Of a DNA stretch of 64,000 nucleotides, positions 48,918 to 64,000 are shown one piece after another. The notes under the pieces were generated by a model. That model searched no databases. It was not told where the DNA came from and saw nothing but the letters and a program-made list of their open reading frames with translations. The DNA is taken from assembly GCF_003202695.1 (NCBI RefSeq), contig NZ_QGLL01000009.1:248001-312000 (forward strand), in the 5' to 3' direction. The position numbers and the translations under genes were made by a program. Position 1 is the stretch's first letter, and each line of letters opens with the position of its first letter. This stretch comes from Bifidobacterium asteroides. GTDB taxonomy: Bacteria > Actinomycetota > Actinomycetes > Actinomycetales > Bifidobacteriaceae.

Positions 48918-48990
48918 GCCCCTCTGGCTCAATGGTTAGAGCAGCGTCCTTTTAAGTCGTGGGTTGTGGGTTCGAGTCCCACGGGGGGCA
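48918..48990 (+). tRNA. tRNA-Lys (anticodon TTT)
   Basis: 73 nt without encoded CCA. The acceptor arms GCCCCTC and GGGGGGC pair, with the discriminator A at 48990. The anticodon loop is CTTTTAA (anticodon TTT) and the T-arm is GTGGG-TTCGAGT-CCCAC. CTTTTT follows directly as terminator. Its 3' end is a typical integration target; the island to the right begins here. Confidence 0.95.
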
Positions 48991-49149
48991 CTTTTTCTGC
49001 TGGCTTGCATTTGGTGGCTCAGCGATAGGTAGGAACTATCAGCACAAGCATGGTTCAGAGCTGTTCTTGGGAGCAGACTCTATGAAATAAGAGAAGCTCT
49101 GTTCCGTGACCAGTAAGATAATCCCGAGCGTTATAAAGATCCTGGAATT

Positions 49150-49377
49150 TTGGCAACACAATGTTTGATAGATGCTGAGATTGTAGATAAAACATATACA
49201 GCGGCAAAATTCAATGAGCCAGCTCAAATTCTGCAGACTCATAATAACAATGCTCAGGGCACTCTTCAAGAAATTTTCGGCTTCCCTGTAGCAGGTAAGC
49301 AAGTATCACAGGCGCGGTATTCGTCTTTCTTTGGAGGCCAGTCCATTATCATAAGTGATGGGGCCGATAATCCATGA
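49150..49377 (+). CDS. Possible small protein, unrecognised
   Basis: 75 codons from a TTG at 49150; no clear ribosome site. The product contains plausible folded-protein composition (LIDAEIVDKTYTAAKFNEPA, GFPVAGKQVSQARYSSFFGG) but matches no family I know. Its stop overlaps the start of the next short frame (ATGA). It may be the tail of a truncated gene at the tRNA-proximal end of the island. Confidence 0.35.
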   Translation: MATQCLIDAEIVDKTYTAAKFNEPAQILQTHNNNAQGTLQEIFGFPVAGKQVSQARYSSFFGGQSIIISDGADNP

Positions 49378-49469
49378 AAAATCTTTTATATTTCAAAAAA
49401 TCACGTGGTAGGCTCATCTCTGCGCTCTTATTGTTATCTGCTGTCATTGTTCTAATAGTAAGGCGTTGA
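49374..49469 (+). CDS. 31-residue membrane peptide, or start of a truncated membrane protein
   Basis: ATG at 49374 overlaps the stop of the preceding frame (ATGA). The sequence has a basic N-terminus (MKNLLYFKKSRGR), one hydrophobic helix (LISALLLLSAVIVLIV) and ends RR. It runs straight into the relaxase remnant, so it may be the N-terminus of a larger protein cut off by recombination rather than a true peptide gene. Confidence 0.3.
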   Translation: MKNLLYFKKSRGRLISALLLLSAVIVLIVRR

Positions 49470-49983
49470 CGGCGATCGCATTGTCGGGTCTAGTCGTGGA
49501 CGTGTCAGTCGGCCCCGCCGGTGCAAGGAAGATTACGGCCATGAACGCGCTGCGCCGCGCATAGGAGACAGAGCACGGCAGAGGCTCAGTGGCCAGGCTC
49601 AACCCCTCAGCGGCCGCGACGCAGGTGCTCGCCAAACGGCAAACTCTCATTGAGCAACGCGCCGCCACGCTCCTGACAAGGCCATCGCAAATCGTGAGCC
49701 TTGAACTACCCAACTCGGTCCCAAACCCACCGAGACAAAACGGCAAGCAACATGGCTCAAAGCTGCACATACCATCGTCGCCTACCGCGATCGCTACCAC
49801 ATCATCGACAGCCAGCACCCCCTCGGACCAGAGTCAAAAGACTGGGCCATAAAGCAAAAGATCAATGCAGCGCGCATACGAACAGTGCTGGATACAACAC
49901 GAAGCAATGTGCTGGTTACAAATTCCATTCCGCATGTTCGTAGGGATACCCAGACTATGACGCGCACAGGCAGAAACCTGTGA
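49466..49983 (+). pseudogene. Broken MobF/TraA-type conjugative relaxase-helicase
   Basis: Remnant of the helicase part of a TrwC/TraA-like relaxase. The frame from 49466 reads GLVVDVSVGPAGARKITAMNALRRA, where the intact family has GPAGAGKTT, so Walker A is ruined. A stop at about 49562 follows. The same frame resumes with GRGSVARLNPSAAATQVLA, a match to the family's next motif. After a shift, TWLKAAHTIVAYRDRYHIID resembles the C-terminal region, ending at 49983. Most of the gene is deleted. This marks a former conjugative or mobilisable element at tRNA-Lys. Confidence 0.75.
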
Positions 49984-50265
49984 TAGGAAGAAGGGTATTG
50001 ACCAATATTCAAAACCCCAAAACACAGGTCAACGAGAACTGTTAGACCTGTTGCGAACACGCAGCTGTCTAAGTATGGTACCTAAGTTCCAGAATCGAGA
50101 AGATCAATGGCAACTTAGCAAGCAACTAAGAAAGAAGCAACGTGTTTCTCGACTTCGAACATTGGCTACTTTTATCCCACTTGCGGCTCTATCTTTAGCA
50201 TCTGATATCGAAGTAAAATAACCGTATCATCGAGTTTTAAAATCTTGCATGCGAGAGAAGAGCAA

Positions 50266-51372
50266 ATGTCTGGCAATAATACATCCAACGATGGTGAGTA
50301 TCCCGCCCCGCACCTAGATATCCGACAGCTACGAAAGCTATGTTATAGCAAACGACTGAACTTCCTTCTTGGAGCAGGGGCGTCACAACCAGCCATACCA
50401 ACCTTGACAGATGGGCAGGAGCCAAAAGAACTTATCGACCAAATACGCCAAGTCTCTTGTAATCTTGCCGCCGGGTCGGTCTCGGCTGGTGAGGAAATGG
50501 ACACTCTAGGGGCATACGTCAGGTTCATATCAATGATCATTTCCATTCTCAGTATGTCCAATTCGAGGGCTGTGCCAAGATCCGCGAACATCTTTACTAC
50601 GAACTACGACCTTTTCATTGAAGCTGCCATGGACCAAGTTATGCAGGAGAACTATGGTGTCATTTTCAACGATGGTGCGAACGGCTATTTTAGGCGGTAT
50701 ATCAACACTTTCAACTACGACCGATCCACGGCACTCAGGGGTCAGTTCGACAATTACAATCACGAAACCCCGACGATCAGACTCATCAAACCACATGGAT
50801 CCATTAATTGGAGACAATCCAAAGCGGACAAAGATCAAGAGCTCATCGAGGTGCTCAGCCAGCCCGTAGAGAATCCTTTTCTTGTTCTGCCTGATGCAAA
50901 TGAGTCGGAGCATACGATGGAGAGCCGCCACTTCTTCGAGATGCTTCGGTTGTTCAACATCGAATTGGATAAACCGCAGTCGATACTGTTCGTCATAGGC
51001 TTCTCCTTCCAAGACAAGCACATCAAGGGCATGGTACAGAGGGCTTTGCAAAATCCTGGACTTCAGGTGTGCATCTTCGCCTACTCTGATGAGACATCTA
51101 AACCGGACACTGGCAATGCGAGAAAAGACATCCTAAACAATCTCGGAACGATATCGAATTCGAACCTGTTGATTCTCTCACCTAAAGACGTGGCCAATTG
51201 TGTGATCAATCTTGGAAAGCATGACCCGCCTCACGCAGACTCCAAGGCTACAGAAAACAAGTCGGATGGCATACGACTAAACCTAAAGACCGTGACAAGA
51301 CTGCTCATGCCCAACAATGCCGACAGCTTTCCCATACTGGCACAAGCAGACAGTGGGATAGGGAGCAAATAG
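50266..51372 (+). CDS. SIR2-like NADase domain protein of a SIR2-HerA defence system
   Basis: 368 residues from ATG 50266 with GAGAAGAG close upstream; a TTG 21 nt earlier is possible. The SIR2 fold is shown by LNFLLGAGAS (31-40, the glycine-rich NAD loop), NIFTTNYDLFIEAA (108-121) and the catalytic-His segment IKPHGSINWR (174-183). FVIGFSFQDKHIKGMVQRAL gives the later strand-helix. No transmembrane segment. In characterised SIR2-HerA pairs the SIR2 subunit depletes NAD+ on phage infection and aborts growth. The gene is followed after 2 nt by herA. Clearly lower GC than the core genes, consistent with transfer. No promoter could be chosen in the short AT-rich gap upstream. Confidence 0.88.
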   Translation: MSGNNTSNDGEYPAPHLDIRQLRKLCYSKRLNFLLGAGASQPAIPTLTDGQEPKELIDQIRQVSCNLAAGSVSAGEEMDTLGAYVRFISMIISILSMSNSRAVPRSANIFTTNYDLFIEAAMDQVMQENYGVIFNDGANGYFRRYINTFNYDRSTALRGQFDNYNHETPTIRLIKPHGSINWRQSKADKDQELIEVLSQPVENPFLVLPDANESEHTMESRHFFEMLRLFNIELDKPQSILFVIGFSFQDKHIKGMVQRALQNPGLQVCIFAYSDETSKPDTGNARKDILNNLGTISNSNLLILSPKDVANCVINLGKHDPPHADSKATENKSDGIRLNLKTVTRLLMPNNADSFPILAQADSGIGSK

Positions 51373-51374
51373 AT

Positions 51375-53342
51375 ATGAGTGAGGCGAACTATGCCATTGG
51401 TGTTGTCATATCTGTTGACGGAGACCAGACACTGATAGGCACGTATGATCTCATCAATGACGATGAGATCATCCACAACGGTCAAATCCTCTACGGACCG
51501 CGACTCGGAGCGTACGTCACGGTCAGGCAGAACGACGTCAAACTCATTGCGAAGATCACCTCGGAAAAGGTCATTGATCAGCAGAACACCATCAGAAGCA
51601 ACGAATTCGACAATAGATACAGCAAGAACTCCATCAATCGTCTCATCAGCGTCAAAATGCTTGGAGCGATCGAGGATAATCAATTCATCGTCACCAGCTC
51701 ATACGCCCCGATGGTAGGCAACGAAGCCTACATCACCACCCAGGCGGAGCTGTCCGCGATCTATGCCATCGGACGAAATACAGACAGCATCGCCATCGGC
51801 ACAGCCTTGCTCGAACGCTCCAAAGTGCTTATCCCCATCAATGCGTTCTTCGCCGGACACATCGGCATATTCGGCAACACCGGCAGCGGCAAATCAAATA
51901 CTCTGCACGCGCTCTATTATAAGCTGCTGCACAGCAAATATCGCGAAGGCATTCTGAAAAAGAGCAGGTTCACCGTCATCGATTTCAACGGCGAATACCG
52001 GAGCGAAGGCATCTTCGGATTCCCTAAGAATCATATAGAACGCTACGACGTGGACACGCGATCACAAGAAGGAATGGCCAAGAAGGTCGAAGTCTCCGAG
52101 GATTACATCATCAACCCAGATGTACTTATCATGCTGTTCGAAGCGAAACCAGGAGTGCAAGCGCCTTTTATTAGACGATCTCTGAACGTGTTCGAAGAAG
52201 TGAAGGAACCAGAGCCCTTCATGAAACTTTGTATGGGACTGCTGCAAAAGATAATCTTAACGGGCAACGCCCCCAATGATGATGCACTAGGTGATTGGGT
52301 GGAAGTCACAGAAAACTATTGCGGTGCCGGCTGCCTTTCCCAGCTCAGAGAATTGAGACACTACACTAACGGCAGCTCAACAATACAAGATTCCTCTGGC
52401 CGCAGTATATGGTTCAACTCCCAAGATCAGACAATCAGCGACGAAGGCAAGAAGCTGCTGGGCTGGGAGGGGATAAGCTCTGCTATTCAAAACACATATA
52501 AAAGCTTGAGCATTCTTGATAAATTGCACATGTTCTTCCGCTACCAGAGAGTGTATTCCACTGCTTGGAATGGCACCGATCCACAATATTTGGGTCCCAT
52601 GTTTTCACGGATCAAGACCAGACTTGAATCATTGAATAAAGTAGTTGACATTGTTCCAGCCGCTCAGATGGGGAATGCATACCAAAGTGGGAAGTCTTTG
52701 ACGATCTATTCCTTTGTCCATGCAAATCAAGAGATCAAGCGCATCCTCCCCATGCTGATCGCGAACATGATTTATGACGAACAAAAAAAGGAACAGTCAG
52801 ACACCGAGTCGATCACCAAAACATCGCATCTCATTATCGATGAGGCGCACAACATACTTAGTGACATCCAACGTGATGATGGCGACAACTGGCAGAACCA
52901 CCGATTGGATTCCTTCGAGGAAATCATCAAAGAAGGCCGAAAATTCGGCTTCTACCTCACTATCGCATCACAACGTCCAGCTGACATATCATCAACCATT
53001 CTTTCCCAAATACATAACTACATCATCCATCGACTGGTCAATGACAGAGATTTAAGGTCGCTGGAAAACACTATGCCGACGCTCGATCACTCCTCCCTCA
53101 TGACCATTCCCTCATTGGGCAAAGGCCAAGCCGTGCTGACCGGAACAGCATTCCCAGTACCGCGCTTCACCCAAGTTGACAGGATTATCAAAGTAGCCCC
53201 GGCAAGCGATGACGCCGAGCTCACACGGTTGTGGCGGTCACATGAGAACGATGCCAAACCGGATTCAGTTGCTTCGACGATCACGGTTTCAGGCAGTGAT
53301 GGTGCTGATCACGTACCGGATGACTCTGACACCAGATTTTAA
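51375..53342 (+). CDS. HerA-type hexameric ATPase of a SIR2-HerA defence system
   Basis: 655 residues. The N-terminal HAS-barrel-like region (GVVISVDGDQTLIGTYDLI, GAYVTVRQNDVKLIAKIT) is typical of HerA. Walker A is GIFGNTGSGKSNTLHAL (164-180), followed by VIDFNGEYRS. Walker B is HLIIDEAHNIL (485-495), sensor/arginine region FYLTIASQRPADISSTIL and the C-terminal IPSLGKGQAVLTGTAFPVP, all family traits. HerA hexamers form a scaffold with SIR2 subunits and regulate NAD+ hydrolysis. It is the second gene of the operon. The C-terminal 35 residues are low-complexity and acidic. Confidence 0.93.
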   Translation: MSEANYAIGVVISVDGDQTLIGTYDLINDDEIIHNGQILYGPRLGAYVTVRQNDVKLIAKITSEKVIDQQNTIRSNEFDNRYSKNSINRLISVKMLGAIEDNQFIVTSSYAPMVGNEAYITTQAELSAIYAIGRNTDSIAIGTALLERSKVLIPINAFFAGHIGIFGNTGSGKSNTLHALYYKLLHSKYREGILKKSRFTVIDFNGEYRSEGIFGFPKNHIERYDVDTRSQEGMAKKVEVSEDYIINPDVLIMLFEAKPGVQAPFIRRSLNVFEEVKEPEPFMKLCMGLLQKIILTGNAPNDDALGDWVEVTENYCGAGCLSQLRELRHYTNGSSTIQDSSGRSIWFNSQDQTISDEGKKLLGWEGISSAIQNTYKSLSILDKLHMFFRYQRVYSTAWNGTDPQYLGPMFSRIKTRLESLNKVVDIVPAAQMGNAYQSGKSLTIYSFVHANQEIKRILPMLIANMIYDEQKKEQSDTESITKTSHLIIDEAHNILSDIQRDDGDNWQNHRLDSFEEIIKEGRKFGFYLTIASQRPADISSTILSQIHNYIIHRLVNDRDLRSLENTMPTLDHSSLMTIPSLGKGQAVLTGTAFPVPRFTQVDRIIKVAPASDDAELTRLWRSHENDAKPDSVASTITVSGSDGADHVPDDSDTRF

Positions 53343-55130
53343 GAACATGATAAGTCAAAACAAAACGATGAATGGGTACGGTAAGGACAGAGCATTAGCT
53401 CTCTTTCAGTCAGAACTCGGCATCATTTTCTCTAAGCGGTCGTCGTCCACTAGTGAGAGAGACAAGGAAAAGTACTGATGAATGAATGCAAGACTGTCTC
53501 AACTTGCCTAATCGATTCCCAAAGTCAATATGCCGTAACTGAGTATTAAATTTCTTCCTCAGTCGATCGTCCGGCGAAAACGTTGATTGGGACAAAAATA
53601 CCGTTATCCCAATCGACGTGATTCCATAGTTTCTTCGTGTTACTCAATCAATAACCGCTATTTTCAAACTGTCCTGGCCGACTGTATCGCGTAAAGTCCT
53701 ATGAAGCATTGAATTCTATACACATAAGTTAAGACCCTTTGATGCCTAACATATTTTCAAGTGCGTGTGACTGAACATAGAATGTTAGTGATCCGTCCGT
53801 TAAAAAGAGTCTTGAACACAAACATTTTCAACAGGCACTGGATGACCCCCGCGGTGCAAGTGAATACGGACGCATAACGGCGGGTCAGGTATTCGACGAG
53901 ATTGTCGAGGCCGAGGAGAGCCCGGATTTCATCATGAAGATGTCTACCCTTATCGGTGTCAAGCATCCTCACACGGACCCGAGTGGGCATGGGTACAGCA
54001 ACCAGAGCAGACGCAGCAAACCACCGACCCACTAGTTCGAGCTTAAAAGAGTCAGGAGAGTGCAGGATACGCTCCAGGAGGATGGCAGGCAGATCGACTG
54101 GGATGAATCACGAGCAGATTTCCTGAATCGTGGAAAGGCGCAACAAAATCATCTCGGACGATGTGTAAATCCTGTCTGAATCCGATGCACCCCGTCAAAT
54201 AGGGATCTCAACTTTTTCTCTTCAACACTATCTGAAGAACACGGAATCATATCGAAACAATGTTCTGAATTGCGGTAGCCGCATGTCGCCACGGCATGAG
54301 TATGGGGGTCTCGTCTTTTACATCGATATGCAATGCGACTATTCCTTTTTCACCATCAACCAGCCAGGCCGGGTGCCCCGCAAATGCTGTCAGGGCGAAC
54401 TACCCTATTACTCGAAATCATTCGCTTGATACGTGAAGCGGCCAAGAACGATGTGAGATGGATACTCATCAGTACCTCGATGATGATCACCCACGACATG
54501 ACCGATCTTCTATTCGACACCACGGATATAGAAACGAGTATGGGCCAGTAGGGATTGAACCAGTGCCTGTGGTTCATCTGCCAGATGCAAAGGGGGAAGT
54601 GAACAACGACAATGAAATCGACTTCATCCTCAACAGGAAACAGTATGCCGGCACAAGACGCCGACTACAACGACTCGGCAAAGTGGAGGCATGCAAGGCC
54701 ATCGACGCAATGGAACACAACCAGACCTTCATCACTTCGCCAGCTGCGCAACTCATGATTAATAGGCATGGAGCCAATCTACTGAAATGCAAATAACCAA
54801 GAGTGACTCTCAAACCTAGTGTGATCGACAGGCCAATAGGGCTCATAAGGCACTGAGTGCAGTAAAAGTACCCAGAGATCGATGAAGCCTCTTTCCAAAG
54901 CAGAAAATCTTAGAAAGTCCGGGAAGAGCACGGATAAAATCAACCTGAGCCGCCTAGAACGACACCACGGCCGATAGAATATATTGAAAAACATGAGCTC
55001 TGAACATGAGGATGGGCAGGATTCCATCCTTCCTCGGTAGAAGGGGCATAAAACAGATTCAGCTCACATAACTGTTTGTGCTAGCAATAGCGCGAATGAG
55101 AACAATAGCCCTATCCGATTGGAGATCATT
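53343..55130. other. Decayed coding region between HerA and the next unit
   Basis: About 1.8 kb with no intact gene. Three rightward pieces look like protein. About 53800-54032 includes ITAGQVFDEIVEAEESPDF and ends at a stop. 54333-54551 contains LLLEIIRLIREAAKNDVRWI, then ILISTSMMITHDM, faintly like an SMC/OLD-type ATPase end. 54560-54796 in another frame contains NNDNEIDFILNRKQYAGTRR. Stops and frame changes separate them. I read them as remnants of genes lost from the island; the families are unresolved. Confidence 0.45.
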
Positions 55131-56483
55131 GTGGCCGAACAAAACCTGCTGAATGAGAAGCAGCTGGCTGTTTTGCGGTGGGTCGGTGAAGGGCGACCGA
55201 AAGGAGTGTATGAGCATGGGTTCGATCATCGGGTGACGGCGCGCGCATTGGATCGACGTGGGTTGCTATCCGTACAGGGGCATGGTAGATCCTGGCGTGC
55301 AAGCCTTACTGATGAAGGACGTTACTACTTGGAACATGGCTCATATCCAACATCCGAAGATTCCGACACTACTGAAACGAAACTGGCTACATCCCTCCCT
55401 GCCTACGAGCCACCATACAAGCCTGTTGATGATCTTCTTGATCGTCTTGAGTCTGCGGGCGGCGTACTTCGTTTCGACGCACCAAGTGATGCGGAGCGAA
55501 TCGGTTATGTTCGTACCGTCAGACAGCTGCGTTTTTCAGGATGTTTGAGCCCTCAACACCTATTCAAAGTGACCGGGACTAAGCGGGGACCGTTGACCAT
55601 TAAACTCATACGATCTTCAACGCAGGCAGAGATACCGCCCCAGATTCCCGTGCCGGTTGAAGCTGATCGCAATCGACCCGAAATACAAGCGCTCATTGAG
55701 CACGCTTCACATCTCATGGTTAATGAGACAACCCGTCCGCGAGCATTGGCACTCGTACAAGGCATTAGTGAAGAATGCGTTCGGCGTGGATGGACGCTGA
55801 GTGTGGACAAGAAACCGAGCTTTCTTATCACGGTTGGCCAAGATCACTATCGCTGCAAACTCAGTGAAGAGAGGGTAAAACGCGATGTCTACACGGACGA
55901 GGATATGGCTGAATGCAGGTATGAATGGCAACGAGTCAGCCCGACGCGGAAGGAAGTCTGGTCAGGCCGCCTCAAATTGGAGCTCAATCCTGGCTATGAT
56001 TCCCGATCGTGGGCAGATCGCCAGCGATGGACTCTCGTCTCCAAACTTCCCGAGTTCTTCGACATCATCGAAGAATGGAGCCACGCCGCACAAGATAGAC
56101 GAAAGAAACTTGAAGCCTATCATGCCAAGCAGGTCAAGGAATGGGAGGAAGCCATTCCCAAGGCCCGCGAGGCCTATTTACTCAAGCTCAATGCTGATCG
56201 TGCGAGGCAGCAAGCTGAACAATGGGAGAACGCGGCACGGCTGCGCTCCTATAGTCAAGCGATTCGGCGTCATGCGGAGGAATTCGACGAGCAAGCACAA
56301 GAACACGCGCTAGAGTGGGCGACCTGGATCAATGAACATGCAGATCATATCGATCCCCTCAATGACAAATCCCAACTGACCATGAGTGGGTGCATCAAGT
56401 TAGGAGCAAAAGAACTGGATGCGTACATGCCTCATGGATGGAGTGTTGAGAACCCTCCCGAACCAAGCACCTGGCTACCGTGA
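55131..56483 (+). CDS. Actinobacterial unknown with winged-helix-like N-terminus and coiled coil
   Basis: 450 residues from GTG 55131, with GGAG 6 nt upstream; a TTG 12 nt earlier is possible. The N-terminal 70 residues (LNEKQLAVLRWVGEGRP, ALDRRGLLSVQGHGRSWRASLTDEGRYYLEHG) look like a winged-helix domain. A middle domain follows, with TRPRALALVQGISEECVRRGW and FLITVGQDHYRCKLSEE. Residues about 320-410 are strongly helical and charged, likely coiled coil. No catalytic motif or membrane segment seen. I believe related unknowns occur in other actinobacterial genomes; no function is known to me. It converges on the next gene with a 9-nt overlap. Confidence 0.7.
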   Translation: MAEQNLLNEKQLAVLRWVGEGRPKGVYEHGFDHRVTARALDRRGLLSVQGHGRSWRASLTDEGRYYLEHGSYPTSEDSDTTETKLATSLPAYEPPYKPVDDLLDRLESAGGVLRFDAPSDAERIGYVRTVRQLRFSGCLSPQHLFKVTGTKRGPLTIKLIRSSTQAEIPPQIPVPVEADRNRPEIQALIEHASHLMVNETTRPRALALVQGISEECVRRGWTLSVDKKPSFLITVGQDHYRCKLSEERVKRDVYTDEDMAECRYEWQRVSPTRKEVWSGRLKLELNPGYDSRSWADRQRWTLVSKLPEFFDIIEEWSHAAQDRRKKLEAYHAKQVKEWEEAIPKAREAYLLKLNADRARQQAEQWENAARLRSYSQAIRRHAEEFDEQAQEHALEWATWINEHADHIDPLNDKSQLTMSGCIKLGAKELDAYMPHGWSVENPPEPSTWLP

Positions 56484-57338
56484 TTTGCGAGCTTGCATAA
56501 TCGGAACGCCGAACCGACGCTGAATATCATCAGCCTGTGTCGTGAGTTTCGCGGTACGTAGAACACGGATCGCGTGAGTCACTAGCTCATCCAGTCGCAC
56601 TACCTCTTGTCGTAACGCTTTGAGCTCGTCCTGACGCGCGACAGCCTCGGCGCCACACCATTGACGCAACAAGTCACGGCACCGTTTACCATCCGGCTCT
56701 TCGAAGTCGCTGGATGCAACTTCTTCCGGTGTAACAAAAATATTTTCGTCTTTATTAAAGTAACTCTTATACCATCGCCCATGCGTTGATTCCAATTGAA
56801 CTTCTGATTCCTGCTTTTCGACCTCATGCAGCATCTTGTCAGAGAAGAGAGTGCAGGCAGTTCTCACGATAAGCTCAGTGGTCGCCCAGGGCACAATCCA
56901 CCCATCTTCGTCATCAAACGATTCGGGAGCATCTCTCAGCAAAGACTCATCAAGTTGCAAATATCCAGCGAGACCAGCAACATCCTTTACAGCAGTCACT
57001 CCGGTATAGCGATACGCGGGAATAGCCAACTCTTCGTTAATTAGCGTTCTAAAGACTTCATCGATCGCAAACTCTATTGGCCCGCCTTCCAAACCAGGAT
57101 GAGTATCGACTCTATCCCAGCGAGCCTCTCGAGCCTCGAACTCCACAGCATCTTTCCAGATCACCTTCAAACGAGTAGGTGGAATCCACTCCTGTCTACC
57201 CTCAAATTGTTCATCGATAAACCGGACAAGCGTCCGCGGTGGTTTCTGCGTCCCAATCTTGAGAACTTCGACCTCAACCAAGGAGTCAATGTTATGCGCC
57301 CGATAACCCCAACGCTCACCAATCTTCATAGACAGCAT
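56475..57338 (-). CDS. Unknown protein paired with the SF1 helicase
   Basis: 287 residues from ATG 57338; ATG 57329 (MKIGERWGYR) is equally possible and neither has a good SD. The frame is open 600 nt further upstream, but there it overlaps the helicase gene and is not protein-like. The N-terminal 75 residues (MKIGERWGYRAHNIDSLVEVEV, RFIDEQFEGRQEWIPPTRLKV) look like a small beta-barrel of SH3/Tudor type. The rest is helical, ending in a C-terminal coiled-coil-like stretch (ELKALRQEVVRLDELVTHAIRVL). No enzymatic motif seen. Same strand and 67 nt downstream of the helicase, so probably one operon. Confidence 0.68.
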   Translation of the reverse strand: MLSMKIGERWGYRAHNIDSLVEVEVLKIGTQKPPRTLVRFIDEQFEGRQEWIPPTRLKVIWKDAVEFEAREARWDRVDTHPGLEGGPIEFAIDEVFRTLINEELAIPAYRYTGVTAVKDVAGLAGYLQLDESLLRDAPESFDDEDGWIVPWATTELIVRTACTLFSDKMLHEVEKQESEVQLESTHGRWYKSYFNKDENIFVTPEEVASSDFEEPDGKRCRDLLRQWCGAEAVARQDELKALRQEVVRLDELVTHAIRVLRTAKLTTQADDIQRRFGVPIMQARKSR

Positions 57339-57405
57339 TATCCCAGACGAGGGATGATGACGTGCTGTATCTAAAGGAATTCTGGCCGCACCTTCCCAGC
57401 TCCAC

Positions 57406-60400
57406 TCAGTTTTCTGCGCTCGCCTCCACCGGCAGGTCCTTAGCGATCCTGGACGTATAGGTTCCATTCTTCCAATCAGCGAGGTTGCCGACCACGTAGA
57501 CACGGCGCTTGGCTCGAGACACAGCGACGTTGAGCAGGTTGGGTGAACCATTAACCCATAAACGAGAGCCTTCTCCACGCCTGCCGGCTCTACTGCCAAG
57601 GACGATGAAGACCACATCGGCTTCCCGCCCCTGGGAGGTGTGTACGGTTCCAGCCTGGCTTGATGCCAGCCGATCTGCCTCGCGTCTGTTGCAACCAGTG
57701 CATTGCTGCAATGCATCCGCAAAGGTGTCACGCACCCCGTTAGCCACAGCCCTGAACGGAGCGATGACCAGAATATTGGTGGGGTCGATCCCACCCTGGA
57801 AGAGCCCGCACAGACGCTTTTGAAGTTCGCGGCCTTCCTGCGGCCTCCATTGCGTTCTCCCGGTTTCGCCGGAATTCGGCGGCACATCGTACCAGCAGGA
57901 GGCCGGCAGCTCATCGCCCGCATGAGGCCCGGAAGGATAGGCACATGGCTGATGCTCCGGCCCTACGCGAACCATCCTGCCGGAGTAGGCCATATCGTTG
58001 CATATGGAGAACATAGGCTCATCACAGCGCCGGTGTACCACCAGAGGCATCCCCAGCCAGTGGTCATTCGTCTCGTCCAACAGGCCGCAAGGAGTCTGAT
58101 AATCGACCAAGGCCTGCATGTTTTCGGATTCCAGTCCCAGACGCTGGAGGTGATGGGTGCTCGCCAGAAGTTCACGCATCGGCTTGGGCATGGTATCCAC
58201 GGGCTGAAGCTGCATAGGATCTCCAACTGCAACCGCATGTTTCACGCGCTGCAGCAGACCGGCAGCAGCCTGGGGCAGGGCCTGTCCGGCCTCATCCACA
58301 ATCGCCCAGCCGAGCGCCTCCTTGCCTATCCCCGAAAACATTCTGGATATTGATGCAAAGGACGAGGAAACGACCGGGATCACCAGGAAGAAAGTCTGCC
58401 AAGCCACCAGCCTCTCGTCATCCGTAAAACCATTCGACTGCATCACAGCGCAAGCCAAGGAAAGATTGCACATGAACTGGTGGGCAGCACCCGTGACGGC
58501 CTGCTGATGAAGAGCCAGCGCCTTGATGTAGACCTCCGTCCGCGCCTTGCTCCATTCCGGGTCCATCCACGCAACATGGTCATCGCCAATGTCGGGCCTA
58601 GGCCACTGAATCTGCTTGGCCTCAGCAATTTGCCTTTCTACCGTAGTTAGCTGATCGAACAGGTCTGTAGCTTGTTTTTCGCAATTCTCTAAATCTTGTC
58701 TCGCATCATCAAGGCTATCCTGCAAAAAAGATAACTCCTGACTGGCAGCATCAACTTCGGCGTCGCAATAACCCCTTTTCTTCCACGCCTTTTCCAGAGT
58801 AGTGCGTTTCTTGCGCTCATCCTGTTGTTGTTCTTTCGTTTTTTGGAAAAAATGTTTCAAAGGATGTTCCCGACAAGATGATAGATGATCCTCATAGGCA
58901 GTTTCGGCTTGCTCCTGGGCAGCGCATGCAACATCGGCAGCTTGCTTGGCTTTTGACAGCCGCTCTTTTACGGCTGTGATCTGTCTCTCGTACTGCATCT
59001 GCTCGACTTTCAAGTCGTGCCACATTATCTTTAATTCATCAAGCTTGGCCGAAAGAGCGGATCGTTGATCACACAGGTCTGAATAAGAACGAACGAGGTT
59101 ATACTCATACACTTTTTGAGCACGAATGCGCTCTTCTTTCTTCAGAGCATCATTGAATCCTCTTTTGGCTTCTTCCCATCCGTCAATTACACTTGTTCTA
59201 GTAGATAAATTCTTCAAAAAATTATATACAAACTCATCCTTGAAAGAGCCCAAGAACCGCTTTTTATTGCGCCTATTACCCAAAACTGCAGATATCAGAG
59301 CCCAGGATGAATGGGTATTGGAGGGTTTACTCCCATTATGCTTATCCTGACTGTTGAAGATTAATGTAGCAATGTCCCGGAAGTCGAACCCACGAGGTGC
59401 CTGTTTCCACATGCTCTCGATATAGGATTCCCACTCACTGTCTATAGCATCGGCTCTAGGCAGATCTTGGCTGACGTTCTCAACAGCCTTGTTGTTGCTC
59501 GAAGCCACAACAATCTCAAAACCAGTCACCGACGGATCAAGCGTCCAATATTCATAACTCTTGCGCCGATCGAAAATATTCGTGGCATAACGTTGCTGTT
59601 TGAAAATATCGTCAGGCTGCTGTAATTTCGCCAATCGTTTAGCTCGTGCCACGATAATTTCGGCTACTACATCCTTCAAAAGGGTAGTCTTACCAGTACC
59701 GGGGGGCCCATTGACACCCAATAGCGGTGAGCCACAGATTCCTTCTGCAACTGCACGTATTTGATTAATGGCAAACTGCTGCCCAACGGACTGGAACTGA
59801 TTGGAAGCACTAGGCCATCTTCCAATCGGCATGTTGGAAGGTTTCACAGCACCATCAACGAGAAGACCCTTTGAATCCTCAGCCAAATTGAATCGTCGAG
59901 GATGGCTCATCGACAGATAACTCCTGACCGGACGAGAAAAATTGTTTGGTCCGTCGTTGTGGAGCTTTTCCAAATCGTCTAAGAAGAAGGAGTCGATTAA
60001 CCCGCCATTGAGATATTCCGAATTAGCTTCTAAATGACAATTGACATAATTGTGCATCAGAGGCGATCCGTCTTGCGGGGAGAAAAGAGGAGAACAACTT
60101 ATACTATGGTCGTCAAGCCTCATCAAGTTTGTCGTCCTACGAATAAGCTCTCTTATGTCATCTTTGGTAACTGGGCGTTTCTCGTGCTTTATCCGCCCCT
60201 GTACATCTTTGAGTTCCTTGCACACCGAAGTGTTGAAATACGATTCGATTTCGTTCTCTGCCCCATTGAGTTCGGTAATATCAGGCCACCCAGTCGGACA
60301 ATCGGGCCAACCTCGATGATTGAACAAGCAAGAAACCGCTTTAGCATATTGAGAGATAGCCAGCGATCCTAAGACCAATCTGCCGTCATCCCCTATGCAA

Positions 60401-61242
60401 AACTCCATAAGAGAAGCCATGACACCAAGACCGCCTCCGCGCTTGTACTGGCGATGAGCAAGTTCCAGCATTGTCTCGTTTTGAGCTATCTCTTCTACAG
60501 ATGACAGATTTCGGACAAGCGTAGCTGCAGTCATCAACGCATTCGTGACCACATCCTGGCGGAGTCCGACAGCTATCCGGAAACGTTCATGATGAAGCCA
60601 CGGGCAATCTATATACGTCTCTAATGTTTTCCGGTTTCGTTTCAGCTTCACCGCCCGCAGGACAGGGGAAGAGACAAACCGGGGGTCATAGTCCTTACAG
60701 TAAACAGCGCAGACTACGCCGCGCCGCCGGACTTTTATTGCCAGCTCTCTCACTACCCTCAGAAGACACAAAACCATGGAATCCGTCAGCTTGGTACCTA
60801 CCGGCAGAGGTTCGTGCTGATCCACTATTCCACGCCATAGCTGATTTGTTTCTTCAAGAAGACCAGTTATGGCCTGTTCGTCGAGTCCCGATTTGAACGC
60901 CTGGGACCGTAACCAGCTCTCAGTATCTCCTGCGAATGAGAAGGGTTTGGTCAGCCGGGCGTTCATGTCTGTCTGCAGCCGGTATATTTTCCTGCTCTGC
61001 AGGTCGTTATAGAGGTTTGTATATGAACGATGCTCATTGTTAACCGGCCCGATGAGAAGATCAGCATGAATGCCATCCCATGGAAGTCGCTCCTGCTCAG
61101 AAACGCTTACCCTTTGGCCGACGTTGCGGGAGGAGGATAAAGCAATGAGCTGGTTATCCCTCCAATTTTGTGGTGAGAACAGTTCAACCGCGCACCAATA
61201 TGACAAAACATCTATTGCATGCTGTTGCTCATCGTTCCCCAT
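57406..61242 (-). CDS. Large SF1 (UPF1/DNA2-like) helicase with coiled-coil insert
   Basis: 1278 residues. A 480-residue N-terminal region of unknown fold begins with YWCAVELFSPQNWRDN. Motif I/Walker A is NGPPGTGKTTLLKDVVAEI (511-529), then VVASSNNKAVENVSQDLP (578-595). About 200 residues of charged helix, likely coiled coil (690-875), are inserted before motif II IVDEAGQALP (981-990). Motif III is VGDPMQLQPV (1006-1015), IV VVHRRCDEPM (1068-1077), V GTVHTSQGREADVVFIVLG (1198-1216) and VI NVAVSRAKRRVYVVGN (1238-1253). All helicase motifs are intact; no nuclease motif seen. Lower GC than the core. It is probably the motor of an uncharacterised mobile-island system. Confidence 0.88.
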   Translation of the reverse strand: MGNDEQQHAIDVLSYWCAVELFSPQNWRDNQLIALSSSRNVGQRVSVSEQERLPWDGIHADLLIGPVNNEHRSYTNLYNDLQSRKIYRLQTDMNARLTKPFSFAGDTESWLRSQAFKSGLDEQAITGLLEETNQLWRGIVDQHEPLPVGTKLTDSMVLCLLRVVRELAIKVRRRGVVCAVYCKDYDPRFVSSPVLRAVKLKRNRKTLETYIDCPWLHHERFRIAVGLRQDVVTNALMTAATLVRNLSSVEEIAQNETMLELAHRQYKRGGGLGVMASLMEFCIGDDGRLVLGSLAISQYAKAVSCLFNHRGWPDCPTGWPDITELNGAENEIESYFNTSVCKELKDVQGRIKHEKRPVTKDDIRELIRRTTNLMRLDDHSISCSPLFSPQDGSPLMHNYVNCHLEANSEYLNGGLIDSFFLDDLEKLHNDGPNNFSRPVRSYLSMSHPRRFNLAEDSKGLLVDGAVKPSNMPIGRWPSASNQFQSVGQQFAINQIRAVAEGICGSPLLGVNGPPGTGKTTLLKDVVAEIIVARAKRLAKLQQPDDIFKQQRYATNIFDRRKSYEYWTLDPSVTGFEIVVASSNNKAVENVSQDLPRADAIDSEWESYIESMWKQAPRGFDFRDIATLIFNSQDKHNGSKPSNTHSSWALISAVLGNRRNKKRFLGSFKDEFVYNFLKNLSTRTSVIDGWEEAKRGFNDALKKEERIRAQKVYEYNLVRSYSDLCDQRSALSAKLDELKIMWHDLKVEQMQYERQITAVKERLSKAKQAADVACAAQEQAETAYEDHLSSCREHPLKHFFQKTKEQQQDERKKRTTLEKAWKKRGYCDAEVDAASQELSFLQDSLDDARQDLENCEKQATDLFDQLTTVERQIAEAKQIQWPRPDIGDDHVAWMDPEWSKARTEVYIKALALHQQAVTGAAHQFMCNLSLACAVMQSNGFTDDERLVAWQTFFLVIPVVSSSFASISRMFSGIGKEALGWAIVDEAGQALPQAAAGLLQRVKHAVAVGDPMQLQPVDTMPKPMRELLASTHHLQRLGLESENMQALVDYQTPCGLLDETNDHWLGMPLVVHRRCDEPMFSICNDMAYSGRMVRVGPEHQPCAYPSGPHAGDELPASCWYDVPPNSGETGRTQWRPQEGRELQKRLCGLFQGGIDPTNILVIAPFRAVANGVRDTFADALQQCTGCNRREADRLASSQAGTVHTSQGREADVVFIVLGSRAGRRGEGSRLWVNGSPNLLNVAVSRAKRRVYVVGNLADWKNGTYTSRIAKDLPVEASAEN

Positions 61243-61320
61243 ATTTGCCAGTATGCGGATAAGCGGGGACAGGTGCAGGAACAGGTTCGAGCCTCAACTG
61301 AGACCATAGGAGGCAATCCC

Positions 61321-61352
61321 GATGCGGCATTGTCCAGTCCAATCGCCGCATC
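61321..61352. terminator. Hairpin between helicase and P-type ATPase genes
   Basis: GATGCGGC...GCCGCATC (61321-61328 with 61345-61352), extended by ATTG/CAAT inside. It lies 13 nt beyond the P-type ATPase stop. No T-run follows in either direction, so it may be a stability stem rather than a terminator. It also marks the right edge of the low-GC island. Confidence 0.4.
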
Positions 61353-61364
61353 AGGAAGAAACGA

Positions 61365-64000
<2,636 letters not shown>

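Follow-up and report, generated by a model that had tools for sequence, protein, structure and literature searches.

The 64,000-nucleotide stretch of Bifidobacterium asteroides DNA analysed here (contig NZ_QGLL01000009.1, positions 248,001 to 312,000; hereafter the window) encodes a 1278-residue helicase of superfamily 1 (SF1), which belongs to an unnamed UPF1-like family that is widespread across phyla. At the sensitivity used, the helicase is solitary, mobile and without a fixed partner. We give a probability of about one half to the reading that it is a single-gene mobile accessory, probably engaged in conflict between hosts and genetic elements and most likely in anti-phage or anti-plasmid defence, a function that we infer. 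An earlier reading made from the letters only (the sequence-only reading) had joined the helicase in one system with the 287-residue protein encoded behind it, P0002; the evidence does not support that union.

Architecture of the helicase

The helicase and its parts lie as follows in the window.

57406..61242, reverse strand: UPF1-like SF1 helicase, 1278 residues (open reading frame, motifs, Pfam AAA_11/AAA_12)
59803..61242, reverse strand: N-terminal region, residues 1-480, with W..VE.FSP, the opening pattern of the family, at residues 16-24
60028..60585, reverse strand: predicted alpha/beta segment, residues 220-405 (AlphaFold2 model)
59686..59709, reverse strand: Walker A or motif I, GPPGTGKT, residues 512-519 (sequence motif)
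Helicase residues 581-589: motif Ia, SSNNKAVEN (sequence motif)
58603..59175, reverse strand: coiled-coil-like insert between motifs Ia and II, residues 690-880 (composition, family alignment)
58279..58296, reverse strand: Walker B or motif II, DEAGQA, residues 983-988 (sequence motif)
Helicase residues 1006-1012: VGDPMQL (sequence motif)
Helicase residues 1161-1166: APFRAV (sequence motif)
57502..57648, reverse strand: motifs V and VI, TVHTSQGRE (residues 1199-1207) and NVAVSRAKRR (residues 1238-1247)

The SF1 motifs, read in the sequence and given their usual numbers, are complete and in order, and both AAA_11 and AAA_12 score above the Pfam cut-offs. With motifs I to VI and these two domains the helicase belongs to the UPF1-like SF1 proteins, as the sequence-only reading had it. 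The nearest PDB structures to a profile of the core are UPF1 (9.9e-22) and SMUBP-2 (1.2e-19). UPF1, SMUBP-2, Sen1 and Dna2 share the motif set of the window helicase but have a different N-terminus, and their helical insert is presumably shorter.

Of the 191 residues of the insert, 2 are Gly and 1 is Pro, and the corresponding columns of the family alignment match, in a profile search, the coiled coils of tropomyosin and myosin in the PDB. The coiled coil seen earlier between motifs Ia and II is borne out as coiled-coil-like sequence over about 190 residues. A pattern search of the protein finds none of the HKD, HxKxxxxD or HEPN patterns, in agreement with the earlier statement that no nuclease motif is visible; strings resembling PD-ExK and HNH motifs are present, but they are loose and poor in information.

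In Pfam, PADLOC, NCBIfam and PHROGs, searched at E<=1, no best-scoring stretch starts before residue 480, and so the N-terminus of about 480 residues stays uncharacterised, as first noticed. The N-terminal profile has no trustworthy match in the PDB beyond the Walker A end. Among the best 80 of at least 442 relatives (a scan of genome contigs; these 80 form the family sample), the pattern W..VE.FSP, as searched, occurs in 45. An AlphaFold2 model of residues 1-531, made from 68 sequences, has a mean predicted local distance difference test score (pLDDT) of 66.9 and a predicted template modelling score of 0.64. In means over 10 residues, the pLDDT is 85-86 at residues 221-240, 62-68 at 241-270, 74-93 at 271-380 (except 51 at 311-320) and under 50 at 381-400. 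Strands are placed at 220-227, 277-284, 341-345, 351-355 and 400-405, with helices in between, and residues 220-405 are predicted to form an alpha/beta region. The model is poor at residues 74-103 and 172-216, both within a part of the protein that only Bifidobacterium members have at this length. Four helicases of the family (L141, L142, L148 and L016) are longer at the N-terminus by some 100 residues, a segment that by eye seems common to them.

A widespread and mobile family without a fixed partner

The best 80 relatives span Actinomycetota, Pseudomonadota, Bacteroidota, Bacillota, Nitrospirota, Acidobacteriota and Verrucomicrobiota. By automatic calling of open reading frames, 74 of them are 1000-1300 residues long, and 79 end at most 45 residues past the match to the window protein. 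The remaining one (Arthrobacter, L121:9122-13261) is the only one with a long C-terminal extension, of 310 residues. Downstream of motif VI, the pattern HxKxxxxD is found in none of the 79 relatives in which that motif is recognised.

Plasmid records matching the helicase at E<=1e-30 number 573, with 528 typed as conjugative; 505 are from Klebsiella (members not checked singly), which dominates these matches with many apparent near-copies. In viral contigs there are 16 loci, of which, in the tree, 10 fall within the family, 4 with MkoC (the helicase of Mokosh type II) and 1 beside MkoC, while 1 is too short to place. With the pattern used, tails could be checked for HxKxxxxD in 6 of the 10 viral members; the other 4 include one of 1512 residues (L145). 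The record OR844989.1, present in alignment A1 and labelled as a Staphylococcus phage, is an unverified record of 283 kb that may be bacterial. Within the genus, at E<=1e-20, the helicase is present in 11 of the 27 Bifidobacterium genomes; the copies are broken in 3 of the 11 (one in-frame stop and two split genes), with assembly errors possible.

Neighbours were compared for 79 loci, leaving out a Bifidobacterium relative of 72% (L059), with the 138 nearest open reading frames of 120-899 residues within 3 kb. No family recurs among them: the maximum is 5 of 138 in Pfam (LysR) and 2 of 138 in PADLOC. Fifty helicase pairs have an identity of 60% or more and at least five flanking genes on each member; in 43 of these pairs no flanking gene is common to both at 40% identity, which argues also against a partner without a profile. 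The family neighbours match 138 PADLOC models at 1e-10, compared with 12 matched by 128 random actinobacterial genes; we give this excess no weight because a single methyltransferase matches dozens of models and because the control is not matched for taxon.

The variable site in Bifidobacterium

In the window, the helicase lies in an island that extends from a tRNA gene to an ATPase gene (48918-63971), with ABC-transporter genes on the tRNA side.

48918..48991, forward strand: tRNA-Lys, one side of the island
50245..53342, forward strand: SIR2-HerA defence pair (PADLOC SIR2 4.7e-99, HerA 3.5e-223)
61365..63971, reverse strand: P-type ATPase gene, bordering the variable site

The last name is read from the sequence itself and not from a profile. 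The low-GC island at a tRNA gene, with its SIR2-HerA pair, was rightly recognised beforehand: between 49 and 61 kb the GC per kb is 45-56%, whereas the stretches on either side, 44-49 and 61-64 kb, have 56-63%. A second low-GC stretch, with 47-60% per kb, lies at 29-44 kb. SIR2-HerA is a separate system that shares the island with the helicase. Integration at tRNA-Lys was considered and rejected, with no copy of 14 or more tRNA bases within the island.

The ATPase gene is present in 22 of the 27 genomes of the genus, in 15 of these at 92% identity or more. Among the 11 genomes with the helicase, the distance between helicase and ATPase gene is at most 130 bp in 5, 3.6-4.0 kb in 3 and about 19 kb in 1; in the other 2 the helicase is elsewhere. 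Six ATPase sites without the helicase differ in cargo, for instance HsdR/HsdS of type I restriction-modification (G025), a subtilase (G018), or genes resembling sugar transport by eye (G008). Sites with the helicase hold AbiH (G020), a KAP NTPase (G022), or GmrSD with DUF4062 at 13-15 kb from the ATPase gene (G019). These assignments come from a profile scan of 10 hand-picked genes, in which HsdR, HsdS, AbiH, KAP and GmrSD are matched as such; of the remaining genes, three match DUF4062, a subtilase and DUF3800, one has a weak match below the cut-off and one has none. The site between tRNA-Lys and the ATPase gene is variable, with different defence genes per genome.

Defence, element maintenance or metabolism

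The helicase site in Bifidobacterium varies in content and includes several genes for defence, which makes a role in defence plausible there. To this extent the defence role proposed by the sequence-only reading is tenable; the neighbourhoods outside Bifidobacterium do not support it. In such a role, the alpha/beta part of the N-terminus would recognise a nucleic-acid substrate or a protein bound to it, and the RecA core would translocate on single-stranded RNA or DNA at the expense of ATP. The coiled-coil arm inserted in RecA1 might serve as a brace, a dimer arm or a docking stalk. The effect would be the unwinding or stripping of the invader nucleic acid itself, without a dedicated nuclease. 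That the family as a whole, over many phyla, plasmids and prophages, forms a helicase-only type of immunity, remodelling invader nucleic acid through N-terminal recognition and the coiled-coil arm with neither nuclease nor partner, is a tentative proposal of rather low probability. If the family defends, it would be a frequent relative of the Mokosh and CoCoNuT helicases that lacks a nuclease and is carried by many Klebsiella plasmids already, and it would show an SF1 translocase acting as effector in its own right.

Several observations weigh against a solitary defence gene. A partner encoded elsewhere, or by a gene of fewer than 100 residues, would escape the neighbour searches. Outside Bifidobacterium, the nearest neighbours that can be named are mostly ordinary genes. 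Ten queries (seven defence proteins of the site, P0002, P0003 and MkoC) match none of the 79 family loci and none of the 20 controls at 1e-8, a threshold at which a query of one sequence has little sensitivity; in the viral loci, a KAP relative is found in 1 of 10. Two family members on large Klebsiella plasmids (L014:7188-10541 and L202:6021-9362) adjoin transfer genes, sitting between the genes for TraG and a lytic transglycosylase, and on one other plasmid repABC genes lie beside the helicase. With such neighbours, plasmid maintenance also fits.

The alternative that survives best is one in which the helicase aids the replication or transfer of plasmids, prophages or islands, or their resistance to host nucleases, and does not defend the host. 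The conjugative type of 528 of the 573 plasmid records, the adjoining transfer or rep genes and the presence in viral contigs speak for it. We consider it unlikely on balance: chromosomal copies exist too, with no constant partner for replication or transfer, the Bifidobacterium site is rich in defence genes, and Klebsiella records, many of them apparent near-copies, dominate the plasmid counts. Should the family serve plasmids, it would be an overlooked accessory of the conjugative ones.

An ordinary gene of host RNA or DNA metabolism, spread by chance transfer, would agree with the mostly housekeeping character of the named neighbours elsewhere. The patchy distribution (11 of 27 genomes), the broken copies (3 of 11) and the flanks, which have no gene in common in 43 of the 50 closely related pairs, make it improbable. 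The sequence-only reading had itself named a solitary housekeeping gene outside islands as the finding that would speak against it. The first half of that description fits, the gene being solitary; the second does not, for a gene that is patchy, mobile and broken in 3 of 11 genomes is not housekeeping.

Relation to known helicase systems

The best PADLOC match of the window helicase is MkoC (PDLC03924, 2.2e-59), over residues 506-1255 of the helicase. This match crosses the coiled-coil segment of the window protein, and MkoC therefore has a segment of similar length there. MkoC and the family are both single proteins with a UPF1-like SF1 core in which motifs Ia and II stand far apart. MkoC differs by an N-terminus of its own kind and by a PLD nuclease at the C-terminal end, neither of which the window protein has, and the two are separate in trees.

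A diverged Mokosh type II, that is, an MkoC helicase that has lost its PLD nuclease, would account for MkoC being the best match, and we regard it as quite improbable on the following grounds. The window match stops at position 945 of the 1136 of the MkoC profile. In the 22 genomes searched, family members match the helicase part only (about 239-972 of 1136), with 135-255 bits. On a single contig of Vibrio neptunius, both kinds are present: a real MkoC with 1408.7 bits (4-1135, with a PLD-like HxKxxxxD C-terminus) and a family member with 245.6 bits (247-950). In a tree of 102 rows, the family is one clade beside MkoC, with a Shimodaira-Hasegawa-like approximate likelihood ratio of 100, and in a tree of 29 rows the same clade has a support of 100/99. 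A tree that forces the window protein together with MkoC fails the approximately unbiased test (p 8.3e-66). The N-terminal profiles of the family and of MkoC align only at the Walker A region, and HxKxxxxD is missing past motif VI in 79 of 79 relatives with a recognised motif VI. Membership in Mokosh type II is consequently rejected for the missing PLD, the different N-terminus and the place outside the MkoC clade.

Mokosh type I was rejected as well, with only a partial helicase match to MkoA (3.6e-22) and no match to NERD or PLD in the six window proteins scanned with Pfam and PADLOC. That system (MkoA + MkoB) is listed with NERD and PLD domains (PMC10952713).

In CoCoNuT systems, CnuH is described as a UPF1-like helicase of SF1 whose helical insertion behind Walker A is large and in part coiled coil, and its operons contain the winged-helix effector CnuE, downstream, and McrBC-like genes (PMC11090510). 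By description only, the insertion is like that of the window helicase. The reported CnuE and McrBC-like operon partners set CnuH apart from the family, in which none such is seen: the six window proteins scanned give no match to McrBC or an effector, no profile family recurs among the neighbours, and 43 of the 50 close pairs have flanks without a gene in common.

We recognised no published description of the family in the literature on Mokosh, on UPF1-like or SF1 defence helicases and on Bifidobacterium hotspots, a search that mostly did not reach subscription papers.

The 287-residue protein and its convergent neighbour

Three further features lie between the SIR2-HerA pair and the helicase.

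53790..54853, forward strand: broken gene related to one of 379 residues, its two pieces lying in different frames (tblastn)
55119..56483, forward strand: P0003, 454 residues, convergent with P0002
56475..57338, reverse strand: P0002, 287 residues, 67 bp behind the helicase (start more likely at 57329)

Judging by its relatives, P0002 probably starts at the ATG at 57329. Neither P0002 nor P0003 matches a family in Pfam, PADLOC, NCBIfam or PHROGs, and profile searches of the PDB give nothing credible for either. The small beta-barrel-like N-terminus that the sequence-only reading saw in P0002 stays putative.

A two-gene system, with the helicase as translocase and P0002 as adaptor, is very improbable: the two genes are neighbours on the same strand in the window, as first described, and lie within 8 kb in one other genome (G019) and about 3 kb apart in another (G011), but P0002 is directly behind the helicase in only 1 of the 11 genus genomes with a helicase, 2 of the 6 genomes with P0002 have no helicase, and 7 of the 11 with the helicase have no P0002. 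Both are present in 4 genomes of the genus and directly adjacent only in that of the window. The conserved pairing that the sequence-only reading proposed to look for is also absent farther away. In the class, P0002 occurs in 13 of 394 genomes; the 12 loci other than that of the window's genome, all outside the genus and viewed over at most about 6 kb on each side, contain no helicase match in 12 of 12, and the P0002/P0003 regions of two Rhodococcus plasmids have no match to the window helicase either.

P0002 belongs with P0003, not with the helicase, as follows from co-occurrence and gene order in the genus, in the class and on plasmids. The same 6 of the 27 Bifidobacterium genomes have P0002 and P0003, and in 6 of 6, window included, P0003 is convergent at the end of P0002. 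Outside the genus, 9 of the 12 loci have a P0002 of near full length, all 9 with a convergent P0003 at a gap of -71 to +42 bp; the other 3 are fragments and have no P0003. The P0003 gene is split or cut in three loci (L168, L172 and L176). Both of the two Rhodococcus plasmids have the convergent pair. In the loci viewed, P0002 of near full length is thus always with P0003, which is also found alone: P0003 occurs in 17 of 296 genomes, of which 7 are known to carry P0002, and in 8 others no P0002 was found within about 3-5 kb on each side (the check covered all but G100 and G269). In viral contigs, there are no relatives of P0002.

P0002 and P0003 form a conserved convergent (tail-to-tail) gene pair in Actinomycetes, with ends that overlap or nearly touch. 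By eye, the N-terminus of P0003 reads like a winged helix, without a profile match; unlike CnuE, P0003 runs convergently and shows no link to the helicase. The module is perhaps a DNA-binding pair. We met no description of it, and no literature search was aimed at it. Treating the helicase and the 287-residue protein apart spares the databases a false two-gene system and brings this pair to light.

The gene that is broken in the window has intact counterparts of 379 residues next to P0003 in two further genomes of Bifidobacterium (L018, 11414-12553; L019, 10224-11363), and a Pfam search with the intact form gives no match. Genes with DUF3800 lie near P0003 on the two Rhodococcus plasmids (L010:10934-11638 and L011:10891-11664) and in one further genome (L294:5878-6957).

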